Assembly (NCBI RefSeq): GCF_001625015.1
Contig: NZ_LVWJ02000014.1
Span: forward strand, 2,294,001-2,358,000
DNA: 64,000 bases
DNA from: Lewinella sp. 4G2
Lineage (GTDB): Bacteria; Bacteroidota; Bacteroidia; Chitinophagales; Saprospiraceae
Reading direction: 5' to 3'
Part shown: one piece after another, positions 37,689-49,297 of the stretch
Numbering within the stretch: position 1 is the first letter of the stretch
How the letters are laid out: each line of letters opens with the position of its first letter
Made by a program: the position numbers and the translations under genes
Notes under the pieces: generated by a model
Databases searched by the model: none
What the model saw: only the letters and a program-made list of their open reading frames with translations
Told to the model about the DNA's origin: nothing

Positions 37689-37747
37689 CGCAGCATTTGG
37701 GAATCACGCAGTGAAAATGATCGCTGTTCCCGCTGCAAAAGAGCTAC

Positions 37748-37821
37748 GGTCTGGTAGTTCAGTTGGTTAGAATGCCGCCCTGTCACGGCGGAGGTCGCGG
37801 GTTCGAGTCCCGTCCAGACCG
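37748..37821 (+). tRNA. tRNA-Asp (GTC)
   Basis: All four arms fold. The acceptor GGTCTGG pairs with CCAGACC, the anticodon stem CCGCC/GGCGG holds loop CTGTCAC with anticodon GTC, and the T arm is GCGGG-TTCGAGT-CCCGT. The discriminator is G, as expected for tRNA-Asp. CCA is not encoded. A strong terminator follows. Partial copies of the 3' half lie downstream. Confidence 0.95.
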
Positions 37822-37823
37822 CA

Positions 37824-37853
37824 CAAAAGCCACTCCTTCGGGGGTGGCTTTTG
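37824..37853 (+). terminator. Terminator of tRNA-Asp
   Basis: The arms CAAAAGCCACTCC and GGGGTGGCTTTTG around a TTCG loop pair with one wobble. The same hairpin recurs, altered, after the partial tRNA copies near 37925 and, intact, near 38371. Confidence 0.85.
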
Positions 37854-37863
37854 CGTTTATGAG

Positions 37864-37959
37864 GAATGCCGCCCTGTCACGGTCCCGATTTGATCGGGAC
37901 GGGTTCGAGTCCCGTCCAGACCGCACAAAAGCCACTTCTTGGGGGTGACTTTTGCGTTT
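37864..37959 (+). repeat. Partial tRNA-Asp copy (3' half plus terminator), hairpin in place of the anticodon stem 3' side
   Basis: The copy starts at the D-stem end (GAATGCCGCCCTGTCACGG) and then departs. A perfect palindrome TCCCGAT-TTG-ATCGGGA replaces the anticodon 3' stem and variable loop. The T arm and acceptor 3' strand (CGGGTTCGAGTCCCGTCC) and a degenerate version of the terminator follow. It lacks the 5' acceptor strand and D arm, so it cannot be a functional tRNA. Confidence 0.8.
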
Positions 37960-37963
37960 AAGG

Positions 37964-37990
37964 GAATGCCACCCTGTCACGGTTCCGATC
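37964..37990 (+). repeat. Short tRNA-Asp-derived fragment before the GIY-YIG gene
   Basis: GAATGCCACCCTGTCACGG is followed by TTCCGATC, a decayed left arm of the palindrome seen in the neighbouring copies. It marks the left edge of the GIY-YIG segment. Confidence 0.65.
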
Positions 37991-38046
37991 AAGACAACAC
38001 TCATTTAATCTTCGTCGATGGCGTACCTTTCTAAAAATGCGACACT

Positions 38047-38310
38047 ATGAGTTGGGTGTATATTATTCAAAGCGAGACTGACGGAAAATATTATGTCGGC
38101 TACACTAAGGACTTAGCTACACGTGTAAAAACGCATAATGAAGGAGGATCAAATTGGACCAAAGCTAAAGGACCATGGGTGCTGAGATATTCTGAAGAAT
38201 TTGAAGACCATACCGAAGCGCGGAAGAGAGAAATTAGACTAAAGAAAGCAAAGAGTCATAAATACCTATCATGGCTTATCGAGAACGGCCCAGGCATAAA
38301 GCACAATTAG
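38047..38310 (+). CDS. GIY-YIG family nuclease (UPF0213/YhbQ-like)
   Basis: The 87-residue protein is a stand-alone GIY-YIG domain. The core is WVYIIQSETDGKYYVGYTKD (the YII...YVG pair), with the catalytic arginine in LATRVKTHNEGG and the metal-binding glutamate in HTEARKREIRLKKAKSHKYL. All key positions look intact. The base composition is more AT-rich than its neighbours. The TAG stop (38308-38310) lies inside the TTAGAATGCC sequence of a tRNA-Asp-derived copy, and another tRNA-derived fragment lies 56 bases upstream. A nicking or homing activity at tRNA-Asp is a reasonable inference but unproven; single-domain GIY-YIG proteins also serve other roles. Confidence 0.85.
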   Translation: MSWVYIIQSETDGKYYVGYTKDLATRVKTHNEGGSNWTKAKGPWVLRYSEEFEDHTEARKREIRLKKAKSHKYLSWLIENGPGIKHN

Positions 38311-38408
38311 AATGCCGCCCTGTCACGGTCCCGATTAAATCGGGACGGGTTCGAGTCCCGTCCAGACCGCACAAAAGCCACTCCTTCGGGGGTGGCTTTT
38401 TGCGTTTA
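38307..38408 (+). repeat. Second large partial tRNA-Asp copy with hairpin and terminator
   Basis: It begins TTAGAATGCCGCCCTGTCAC, then has the palindrome TCCCGAT-TAA-ATCGGGA, the T arm and acceptor 3' strand, and a full copy of the tRNA-Asp terminator. It differs from the first copy mainly in the palindrome loop (TAA for TTG) and in the better-kept terminator. Confidence 0.8.
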
Positions 38409-38434
38409 CAGAATAATATTTGAAGCACGATCCC

Positions 38435-38540
38435 GGTAGGACCACGAAGTAGACGCGCAGCGCATCACCGTGATAGGCCGGACCTCGAAGTAGCTGCGCA
38501 TCAAATCAGGTTTGACCAAAGGTCAAAACAGATCCCGGCC
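38435..38540. repeat. Intergenic repeat region with GAAGTAG units and a palindrome
   Basis: Two related units occur, ACCACGAAGTAGACGCGCAG and ACCTCGAAGTAGCTGCGCAT, each followed by GCATC or CATC. The 13-mer GACCACGAAGTAG reappears in reverse inside a tRNA-Gly remnant at about 47132-47144. A perfect inverted repeat TTTGACC-AAA-GGTCAAA lies at 38511-38527. No gene is seen in 38409-38634. Confidence 0.5.
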
Positions 38541-46841: not shown

Positions 46842-46932
46842 GCGGAAGTAGCTCAGTTGGTAGAGCGCTTAAATCTAGGGTCCCATCCCCAGATTACGCA
46901 CCAAGCTAAGGGTCGTGGCTTCGAGCCTCGTC
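46842..46932 (+). pseudogene. tRNA-Gly pseudogene with internal hairpin insertion
   Basis: It begins with the same 25 bases as the intact tRNA-Gly (through TGGTAGAGC). A foreign 30-base segment replaces the anticodon 5' stem and contains the near-palindrome AATCTAGGG-TCCCAT-CCCCAGATT. It then rejoins at CCAAGCT and continues through a mutated T arm to CCTCGTC, losing the acceptor 3' strand. It cannot fold as a normal tRNA. Confidence 0.75.
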
Positions 46933-46959
46933 AAGTAGTAAGGTTGCTTTCCGATACCA

Positions 46960-46994
46960 AACTATAGACTATAGACTCCAAACTATAGACTATA
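46960..46994. repeat. ACTATAGACTATAGACT-type repeat between tRNA-Gly pseudogene and gene
   Basis: Units of ACTATAGACT are repeated four times with small interruptions. They belong to the same family as 40785 and 52363. Confidence 0.6.
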
Positions 46995-46999
46995 AAAAT

Positions 47000-47072
47000 G
47001 CGGAAGTAGCTCAGTTGGTAGAGCATCAGCCTTCCAAGCTGAGGGTCGCGGGTTCGAGCCTCGTCTTCCGCT
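47000..47072 (+). tRNA. tRNA-Gly (TCC)
   Basis: GCGGAAG pairs with CTTCCGC. The anticodon stem TCAGC/GCTGA holds loop CTTCCAA with anticodon TCC. The T arm is GCGGG-TTCGAGC-CTCGT. Discriminator T follows and no CCA is encoded. It is flanked by two defective copies, one upstream (46842) and one downstream (47112). Confidence 0.94.
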
Positions 47073-47111
47073 CTAGTTCCTACGGATGAGTAGGGATAGG
47101 GAAATGTTGCT

Positions 47112-47164
47112 GGGTCGCGGGTTAGCTACGCTGCTACTTCGTGGTCGAGCCTCGTCTTCCGCTC
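47112..47164 (+). repeat. tRNA-Gly 3'-half remnant interrupted in the T loop
   Basis: GGTCGCGGGTT matches the intact gene, then about 21 foreign bases (AGCTACGCTGCTACTTCGTG) intervene. CGAGCCTCGTCTTCCGCTCT then restores the rest of the T arm and the acceptor 3' strand. The insert contains CTACTTCGTGGTC, which also occurs in reverse at about 38448. Confidence 0.7.
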
Positions 47165-48914: not shown

Positions 48915-49090
48915 ACGGGCGTAGCTCAATGCCCTTTGGGGCTGCTTCGCGGTGATAGCGCACAAGGTTTTTGATGAAAGGCCTTTTTTAGAATTTACAA
49001 TTACGGGCGTAGCTCAATGCCCTTTGGGGCTGCTTCGCGGTGATAGCGCACAAGGTTTTTGATGAAAGACCTTTTTAAGAATTAATAATT
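48915..49090 (+). repeat. Two tandem 88-bp units starting with the 5' end of tRNA-Trp
   Basis: Units begin at 48915 and 49003, and the intact tRNA begins at 49091, so the period is exactly 88. Each unit carries ACGGGCGTAGCTCAA, identical to the first 15 bases of tRNA-Trp. A foreign part with GCCCTTTGGGGC and GGTGATAGCGCAC follows, and each ends in T-rich sequence. The units differ from each other only near their 3' ends. They have no anticodon arm and cannot be tRNAs. Confidence 0.85.
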
Positions 49091-49163
49091 ACGGGCGTAG
49101 CTCAATTGGTAGAGCACTGGTCTCCAAAACCAGCGGCTGGGAGTTCGAGTCTCTCCGCCCGTG
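49091..49163 (+). tRNA. tRNA-Trp (CCA)
   Basis: ACGGGCG pairs with CGCCCGT. Anticodon stem CTGGT/ACCAG holds loop CTCCAAA with anticodon CCA. The T arm is TGGGAG-TTCGAGT-CTCTC-like. Discriminator G is as expected. It lies between tuf and secE, the usual place in bacteria. Two partial 5' copies precede it and one 3' copy follows. Confidence 0.94.
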
Positions 49164-49166
49164 CAA

Positions 49167-49186
49167 ATTATCTCAACGGAGATAAT
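49167..49186 (+). terminator. Hairpin directly after tRNA-Trp
   Basis: ATTATCTC and GAGATAAT form a perfect 8-bp stem around AACG, three bases after the tRNA end. It may be a processing signal or weak attenuator; the downstream T run is short. Confidence 0.5.
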
Positions 49187-49258
49187 CACTTTTAACCGTA
49201 CAGTCGGAAAGATTTTCCCCTCTGCACTTGACTCCAACCGCGCAGCAGCGACGCAGTC

Positions 49259-49297
49259 AAACCAGCGGCTGGGAGTTCGAGTCTCTCCGCCCGTGCA
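49259..49297 (+). repeat. Partial copy of the 3' half of tRNA-Trp
   Basis: The 39 bases starting AAACCAGCGGCTGGGAG are identical to the intact gene from the anticodon loop through the acceptor end plus CA. It sits 38 bases before secE. Confidence 0.85.

Follow-up and report, generated by a model that had tools for sequence, protein, structure and literature searches.

Small GIY-YIG nuclease genes among hairpin-bearing tRNA copies: a putative homing-like element family across the Bacteroidota

Why should a tRNA gene be trailed by fragments of itself, with a small nuclease gene among them? The question arises in a 64,000-nucleotide stretch of the Lewinella sp. 4G2 genome (hereafter the window), in which all the features concerned lie on the plus strand. 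There, an intact tRNA-Asp gene with the anticodon GTC (37748-37822; ARAGORN; Rfam tRNA, 70.3 bits) is followed by a terminator-like inverted repeat (37824-37853) and then by three broken copies, each opened by GAATGCC, just as an earlier note made from the sequence alone had described (starts at 37864, 37964, and 38307/38310). The first copy consists of a left piece matching tRNA positions 23-41 (37864-37882; 100% over 19 nt), the hairpin TCCCGAT-TTG-ATCGGGA (TCCCGATTTGATCGGGA; 37883-37899, inverted repeat) in place of positions 42-50, and a right piece matching positions 51-75 (37900-37924; 100% over 25 nt); a second, diverged copy of the terminator-like hairpin follows as a direct repeat at 37926-37955. 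The middle copy (37964-37993) is short, holding only a left piece (37964-37982; 18/19 nt) and a decayed half hairpin, TTCCGATCAAG. After it comes a GIY-YIG nuclease gene (38047-38310), whose stop codon overlaps the first bases of the third copy (38307-38310). This last copy is again long, with a left piece of positions 20-41 (38307-38328; 100% over 22 nt), the hairpin TCCCGAT-TAA-ATCGGGA (TCCCGATTAAATCGGGA; 38329-38345, inverted repeat) in place of positions 42-50, a right piece of positions 51-75 (38346-38370; 100% over 25 nt), and a third terminator-like inverted repeat (38372-38401). In the window's own locus, one kind of terminator is common to the intact and the broken copies, and resembling stretches also stand behind tRNA-Asp in nuclease-free loci of the window's genus, e.g., G003 and G014.

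The palindrome that the note saw in the two long copies is a perfect 17-nt hairpin in both, each stem being lengthened to 8 bp by a flanking G/C. The note had drawn the replaced segment too short: besides three bases at the end of the anticodon 3' strand, positions 42-50 take in the whole variable loop and the base that opens the T stem. Chance repeats were ruled out by the lengths and E values of the exact matches to tRNA-Asp (25 nt and 22 nt; BLAST E of 8e-9 and 5e-7 within the window) and by the hairpin pattern, as TCCCGAT-N{0,12}-ATCGGGA occurs at three sites in the 5.2-Mb genome, two of them at the tRNA-Asp locus, versus none in that genome for the reversed control. The third site (L003:1501) is isolated, with a tRNA gene absent from the 3-kb locus. 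A group I intron was rejected, as an Rfam search of 37700-38450 returned no intron family at E up to 1, and other Rfam RNAs at the locus were rejected because, besides tRNA, only matches of E 0.02 or worse, under gathering scores, were obtained. Against the nuclease, the NCBIfam intron-endonuclease model reached 21.1 of the 56.05 bits needed, far under its cut-off.

The claim that a GIY-YIG nuclease gene lies between the copies also stood. Its 87-aa product consists of the catalytic domain only (PF01541, E = 3e-19), PF01541 was matched by all 23 members of an alignment of related proteins, and Y5, Y16, G18, R26, H30, and E62, which we take to be the catalytic positions of a GIY-YIG nuclease, are invariant in these 23 sequences. 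In the AlphaFold2 model (mean pLDDT, 91.6), all 87 residues form a single small domain; as modeled, the protein is a bare catalytic domain with no room for a DNA-binding extension. The nearest solved sequences are the UPF0213 proteins BH0048 and EF2693, followed by SLX1. The dN/dS ratio was 0.09-0.33 in 8 of 13 pairs, dS being not computable in the other 5. Matches to PHROG homing-endonuclease families were weak (best E, 1.5e-5; at most 11 of the 23 members for one family). Recent spread by plasmid or phage was rejected, since the window protein matches 3 plasmid and 19 phage records, all at <60% identity; a protein of the Met group (see below) had no confirmed match in viral contigs. The two other GIY-YIG genes of the window's genome lie in loci of about 3.2 kb without a tRNA.

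We searched for the window protein in 60 relatives and found a match in 33 of them; a profile built from 23 such proteins matched 252 of 395 genomes of the phylum, with at most 13 candidates scored per genome and the strongest matches listed, so that negatives may be missed positives. From these matches, a nonrandom sample of 98 loci was assembled: 30 from the 60-relative search, including the window's own locus; 28 from the profile search (30 supplied, 2 dropped as repeats of earlier loci); and 40 hand-picked among the matches listed, one per genome, mostly off contig ends, and with their surroundings unseen. ARAGORN placed an intact tRNA gene near 86 of the 98, in all 86 on the strand of the ORF, and 14 isotypes are represented among the nearest tRNAs. 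The distance between nuclease and tRNA has a median of 49 bp and a maximum of 266 bp, and it is within 100 bp in 73 of the 86 loci; with 42 tRNA genes per 5.2 Mb, we estimate that well under 1% of random genes would be expected so near on the same strand. Among the remaining 12 loci, several of which are at contig ends, tRNA pieces were recognized by eye in 11. The note had named, as a sign against its reading, nuclease genes without tRNA fragments in related genomes. The outcome favored the note, for L028 alone among the 98 loci lacked a tRNA piece nearby (86 assessed with ARAGORN, 12 by eye). A separate scan of named genomes with a protein of the Met group gave 14 loci, including members of Balneolaceae, Chitinophagaceae, Brumimicrobium, and Cyclobacteriaceae; 11 adjoin an intact tRNA-Met, 2 adjoin Met pieces recognized by eye, and 1 (L222) adjoins a tRNA-Ser.

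Partial copies of the neighboring tRNA were found in 84 of the 86 loci at a loose setting and in 83 at a strict one, under which 3 loci had no broken copy and a single match lay on the minus strand. In 70 loci the ORF comes after the intact tRNA and in 16 before it; in 78, the tRNA has a broken copy on the same side as the ORF. Among 54 upstream copies, 43 begin at tRNA position 1-2 and none extends to the 3' end, while among 94 downstream copies 64 extend to the 3' end and 2 begin at position 1-2. At least two nuclease-gene matches are present in 31 of the 98 loci, mostly spaced 0.3-0.5 kb apart, and two loci hold five matches at identical spacing. Repetition of this sort could mean that the nuclease serves its host by tuning the dosage of the adjacent tRNA, e.g., against tRNA-cutting defenses or toxins, in the manner of SegB, which is reported to amplify tRNA-Tyr in phage T6 (PMC13096335). 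Repeated copies are indeed common, and one exceptional locus, L076, carries a tRNA-Asp array (nine tRNA genes in the locus), behind which lie broken copies at 85-bp spacing and, last, the nuclease gene. What is repeated, however, is mostly the nuclease gene and broken copies and rarely an intact tRNA, given that no upstream copy spans to the 3' end and only two downstream copies start at the 5' one. We regard a dosage function as improbable.

The places at which the copies are broken recur as well. Inserts, mostly hairpins, replace or interrupt an arm at 119 junctions in 68 loci; some of these junctions are likely due to chance (e.g., L007 10|15). Elsewhere in the family the hairpin sits in different tRNA arms, and its place recurs by isotype. 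For Asp, the junction is 41|51 in four of the five members of the window's group and 50-51|59-60 in eight further loci; among loci of the downstream layout, five of six for Ala have it at 26-27|44-45 and seven of eight for Met at 34-38|48-49; and both of the listed Cys loci have it at 38|57. Hairpins of the TCC..GGA kind were found in 47 loci. Their pairs 6 and 7 are Watson-Crick in 54 of 55 and 34 of 50 cases, compared to 28.0 and 12.9 when shuffled; pairs 1-5 were demanded by the filter and hence stay outside this covariation count. An ORF end that overlaps a tRNA piece was seen in L005 as well as in the window. Taken with the survey, these features mark out a genuine family of GIY-YIG elements that extends across the phylum and lies nested within tRNA genes, with an intact copy retained.

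Does the nuclease follow its tRNA or its host? A tree of 96 proteins was built on 81 columns, with weak deep branches, and 85 of its rows were used for counting. Isotype changes 27 times on this tree (13 at best; 100 shuffles had a mean of 61 and a lowest value of 55), and host family on the same rows changes 49 times (25 at best; shuffles had a mean of 65 and a lowest value of 61). The Met loci (support, 100/99) and the Leu loci (100/98) each form a single clade spread over four host families, and Cys is one clade inside one host family. As far as these sequences can tell, the phylogeny of the nuclease tracks tRNA isotype better than host family.

If an element were mobile, occupied and empty sites should differ by its presence; the earlier note had proposed aligning the same tRNA-Asp locus across related genomes. 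In the window's genus, 19 tRNA-Asp loci comprise 5 with the nuclease, 2 clear hairpin-bearing remnants, and 12 without tRNA pieces; remnants and clean loci were told apart by visual inspection of 130 bp on the upstream side and 260 bp on the downstream side. Among the 12, G011 carries an additional terminator copy preceded by another hairpin, so it may count as a third remnant. Across the 19 loci, the tRNA-Asp sequence is independent of occupancy. A second genus yielded 30 orthologous tRNA-Ala loci whose upstream flank is conserved, taken from the best matches in the 120 of 150 genomes that had a match; 11 of these loci carry the nuclease. The promoter flank abuts position 1 of the intact tRNA in 15 of the 30, including L302, where the nuclease lies downstream. 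The remaining 15 have position 1-2 of a broken copy next to the flank, to within one base, and reach the intact tRNA only after one unit (7 loci), two units (5 loci), or three units (1 locus) of 79-90 bp; the exceptions are L313, with 42 bp, and L305, with 488 bp. A hairpin stands at the junction of the broken copy, and the neighboring intact tRNA is unaltered.

An ACCCAA..TTGGGT terminator follows the intact tRNA-Ala in 9 of the 11 nuclease loci (10 with a variant, in L299; L323 has another kind) and in none of the 19 nuclease-free loci. On the far side, the 3' half meets a resident-type terminator, that is, one of the two kinds common in nuclease-free Ala loci (CCGTATT or CCTTGTAAA), in 6 of the 11 (7 with a variant, in L295). 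Otherwise, the far side has the element kind in L311, which thus has it on both sides, a near variant in L296, a related kind in L323, and no copy in L304. The far-side kinds were judged by eye, and the evidence of two terminators comes from one genus and one isotype. The comparison of these loci shows the extra DNA with the gene, which starts and finishes in tRNA sequence, to sit, mostly, between the resident tRNA promoter and a resident-type terminator. Insertion within the gene, by an element equipped with a 3' half and a terminator of its own, predicts such maps, in which the resident promoter is followed by a 5' end and a 3' end by the (mostly) resident terminator, with the extra DNA between. 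The same maps would result if the element's own end were a hairpin-headed tRNA piece and it were inserted precisely at the end of the gene, so that the point of entry is one that we infer.

The alleles of the tRNA itself were also compared. A recoded, cleavage-resistant tRNA in occupied loci was rejected, since the same alleles occur with and without the element in both genera. Most of the tRNA-Ala alleles (L294-L323) belong to one or the other of two sets, and all differences between these are confined to positions 26 to 65. The differences flank the anticodon stem on both sides and are patchy across occupied and empty loci; positions 1-25 are invariant in all 30.

Partial copies also occur apart from the gene. 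In the window's genome, same-strand partial copies lie within 450 bp of 7 of the 42 tRNA genes, and the nuclease is present only at Asp. As a control, we took a single relative (G326), picked because the profile search gave no nuclease match, and found partial copies at 0 of the 35 tRNA genes examined (40 found). Three of the seven relic-bearing genes fall in the window, namely, Asp, Gly, and Trp. The tRNA-Gly gene (47000-47073) has a broken 5' copy upstream (46842-46866), separated by a different insert from another piece at 46901-46932, and a 3' piece downstream (47145-47164) behind the insert AGCTACGCTGCTACTTCGTGGT. For the tRNA-Trp gene (49091-49164), positions 1-16 recur upstream as 5' pieces, at about 48915 and 49003, and positions 37-74 recur downstream as a 3' half at 49259-49296. 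No GIY-YIG gene is near either (46842-47164 and 48915-49296). Downstream 3' pieces also accompany tRNA-Gly(gcc), Ser(gct), Pro(tgg), and Ser(gga) of this genome (L237, L242, and L273). Judging from such loci, relics free of the nuclease exist, and gene-free units and tandem copies are common.

Could all of this be passive decay? Arrays and duplications of tRNA genes are common in bacteria. Tandem duplication by unequal recombination might have carried the nuclease along by chance, with the hairpins being plain terminators; a T-run, as this would have it, is present in 4 of the 47 listed hairpin occurrences. With a T-run in so few, the hairpins were rejected as plain terminators. Decay of this kind is also at odds with the polarity of the copies, the recurring hairpin positions, the isotype-faithful phylogeny, and the gene-linked terminators, as well as with the contrast between the window's genome, where 7 of 42 tRNA genes have broken copies, and the one relative without a nuclease match, where 0 of 35 do. 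We hold it to be highly improbable.

A stronger rival takes the hairpin as the true mobile unit and the GIY-YIG protein as its mobilizer, as RAYT is for REP; RNA genes would then be tolerant landing sites, their stem-loops being interchangeable, and the broken tRNA copies a by-product. Such hairpins are dispersed: TCCCGA..TCGGGA has 68 sites in four genomes that carry the nuclease, where its reversed control has 0. Its median per genome is 11.5 in 22 genomes with a nuclease match and 3 in 20 without; for TCCGCC..GGCGGA, the median is 8 where a nuclease match is present (26 genomes) and 1 where it is not (12 genomes), neither set being matched for kinship. The outer bases of the hairpin are common to isotypes and families while its inner pairs covary, and the solved relatives of the protein include SLX1, a structure-specific nuclease. 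The dispersed hairpins also reach other RNA genes, as this rival would expect. The RNase P RNA gene (rnpB) and a cobalamin riboswitch contain one, and another cobalamin riboswitch has one at its edge (L159:1501, L172:1015, and L167:1057). In L163 (1399-1560), two tandem 5S rRNA 3' ends, recognized by eye and 99 bp apart, each carry a TCCCGATTTTCATCGGGA hairpin, an anatomy like that of the tRNA loci, in a 2.7-kb locus that has no nuclease gene. Nevertheless, among 36 dispersed-hairpin loci (one place held twice, as L160 and L175, so that 2 of the 47 occurrences are double-counted), a tRNA gene lies within 400 bp in only 8 and a nuclease gene in only 2. Moreover, a genome without a nuclease match among the at most 13 candidates scored (G373) has 40 hairpins, the window's genome has few, the medians are confounded by kinship, and nuclease clades that follow isotype are left unexplained. 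We therefore judge the hairpin unlikely to be the mobile unit.

What, then, is the element? Across the loci compared, the gene is nested in tRNA sequence, the intact tRNA is kept, and junction hairpins, isotype fidelity, repeats, and presence/absence differences recur, as read from the alignments. We think it fairly probable, and go no further because the maps fit in-gene and gene-end insertion alike, that these loci harbor a sub-kilobase, homing-like GIY-YIG element which, on the simplest reading, integrates within a tRNA gene, comes with a half to replace the one displaced, and is amplified as tandem copies. Such an element would enter the tRNA gene and displace the old half by supplying a new one: the 3' half plus terminator in the common layout and the 5' half in the other. 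The GIY-YIG protein would make a break in the tRNA gene or at an adjacent hairpin, and the break might be repaired from an element-carrying donor, with the flanking tRNA pieces as homology. The hairpin may mark a site that is no longer cuttable or may itself take part in the reaction; breaks inside the repeats could expand and collapse the arrays. The chief objection to this reading concerns specificity: because the intact tRNA is unchanged in occupied loci, a nuclease that cuts tRNA DNA by sequence alone should cut its own host. That the protein is a bare catalytic domain also counts against the reading. Either the nuclease would be rarely expressed, or it would recognize the hairpin or a structure rather than the tRNA sequence, or isotype fidelity would come from the flanking homology rather than from the protein. 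The earlier note's reading, a selfish element that cuts at tRNA-Asp and restores the 3' end on insertion, is partly supported: it gains from the consistent arrangement in relatives, presence/absence, isotype clades, and (in the other genus) the gene-linked terminator. It was too narrow, in that neither tRNA-Asp nor the anticodon is special and relics free of the nuclease exist.

If the homing-like reading is true, tRNA genes across the phylum have been repeatedly invaded yet kept working by an element made of little more than one 80- to 100-residue nuclease, and a selfish element can live inside a gene indispensable to the cell. It would also account for many of the small GIY-YIG genes that these genomes carry next to a tRNA gene. 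For the evolution of tRNA genes, the Ala alleles (30 loci, one genus) differ only from position 26, the junction side that the element would replace. A bolder reading, which may be right though we doubt it, is that of a new class of mobile DNA: a phylum-wide hairpin mobilized by an 85-residue structure-specific GIY-YIG nuclease, replacing stem-loops in RNA genes (tRNAs above all, but 5S rRNA, rnpB, and riboswitches too) and rebuilding a working gene at each insertion. If true, <500 bp would suffice for a natural driver that breaks essential RNA genes and rescues them.

How do these loci compare with known systems? Genomic islands and integrative elements of tRNA genes are kilobases long, depend on an integrase of the tyrosine or serine type, and are bounded by a short direct repeat that insertion leaves. 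They likewise enter a tRNA gene and supply a replacement for the displaced end; here, by contrast, the repeat unit measures about 0.3-0.5 kb, a hairpin often caps the displaced half, and the 5' halves of tRNA genes are involved too. The small GIY-YIG proteins of the UPF0213/YazA/YhbQ group, to which the closest solved structures (BH0048 and EF2693) belong, are single domains of similar size, and among the papers listed by a literature search no report of tRNA linkage for them was apparent. REP sequences (PMC3733652) are likewise short GC-rich hairpins, dispersed, with a small nuclease-like gene, the RAYT, near some. They differ in that the associated protein is here GIY-YIG and not an HUH (Y1) tyrosine transposase and in that the hairpins near the gene lie inside copies of one specific tRNA gene. 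Passages of PMC1564403 and PMC3733652 do not describe the element, nor did the open-access PubMed Central literature searched, which is weak evidence of absence; as far as searched, the arrangement appears new and homing-like in pattern.

The likeness is greatest to SegB and the other GIY-YIG homing endonucleases of T-even phages, likewise small genes beside tRNA genes of many isotypes (PMC13096335). SegB is there reported to have the motif RAWTSGAAC, which we infer to be, in reverse, the tRNA T-loop, and the overlap of an ORF end with a tRNA piece (38307-38310; L005) may be likened to SegB of phage T6 (PMC13096335). SegB is phage-borne and free-standing, whereas the present proteins are encoded in bacterial genomes and, at about 80-100 aa, amount to bare domains. 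The sections of PMC13096335 compared here mention no insertion into a tRNA gene, replacement half, or hairpin-capped broken copies, and they report no preference for particular isotypes among the tRNAs near segB, unlike the lineages here, which tend to one isotype. SegB, set apart by this description, is the closest described system, and, if our reading is true, the element would be its chromosomal, miniature counterpart.
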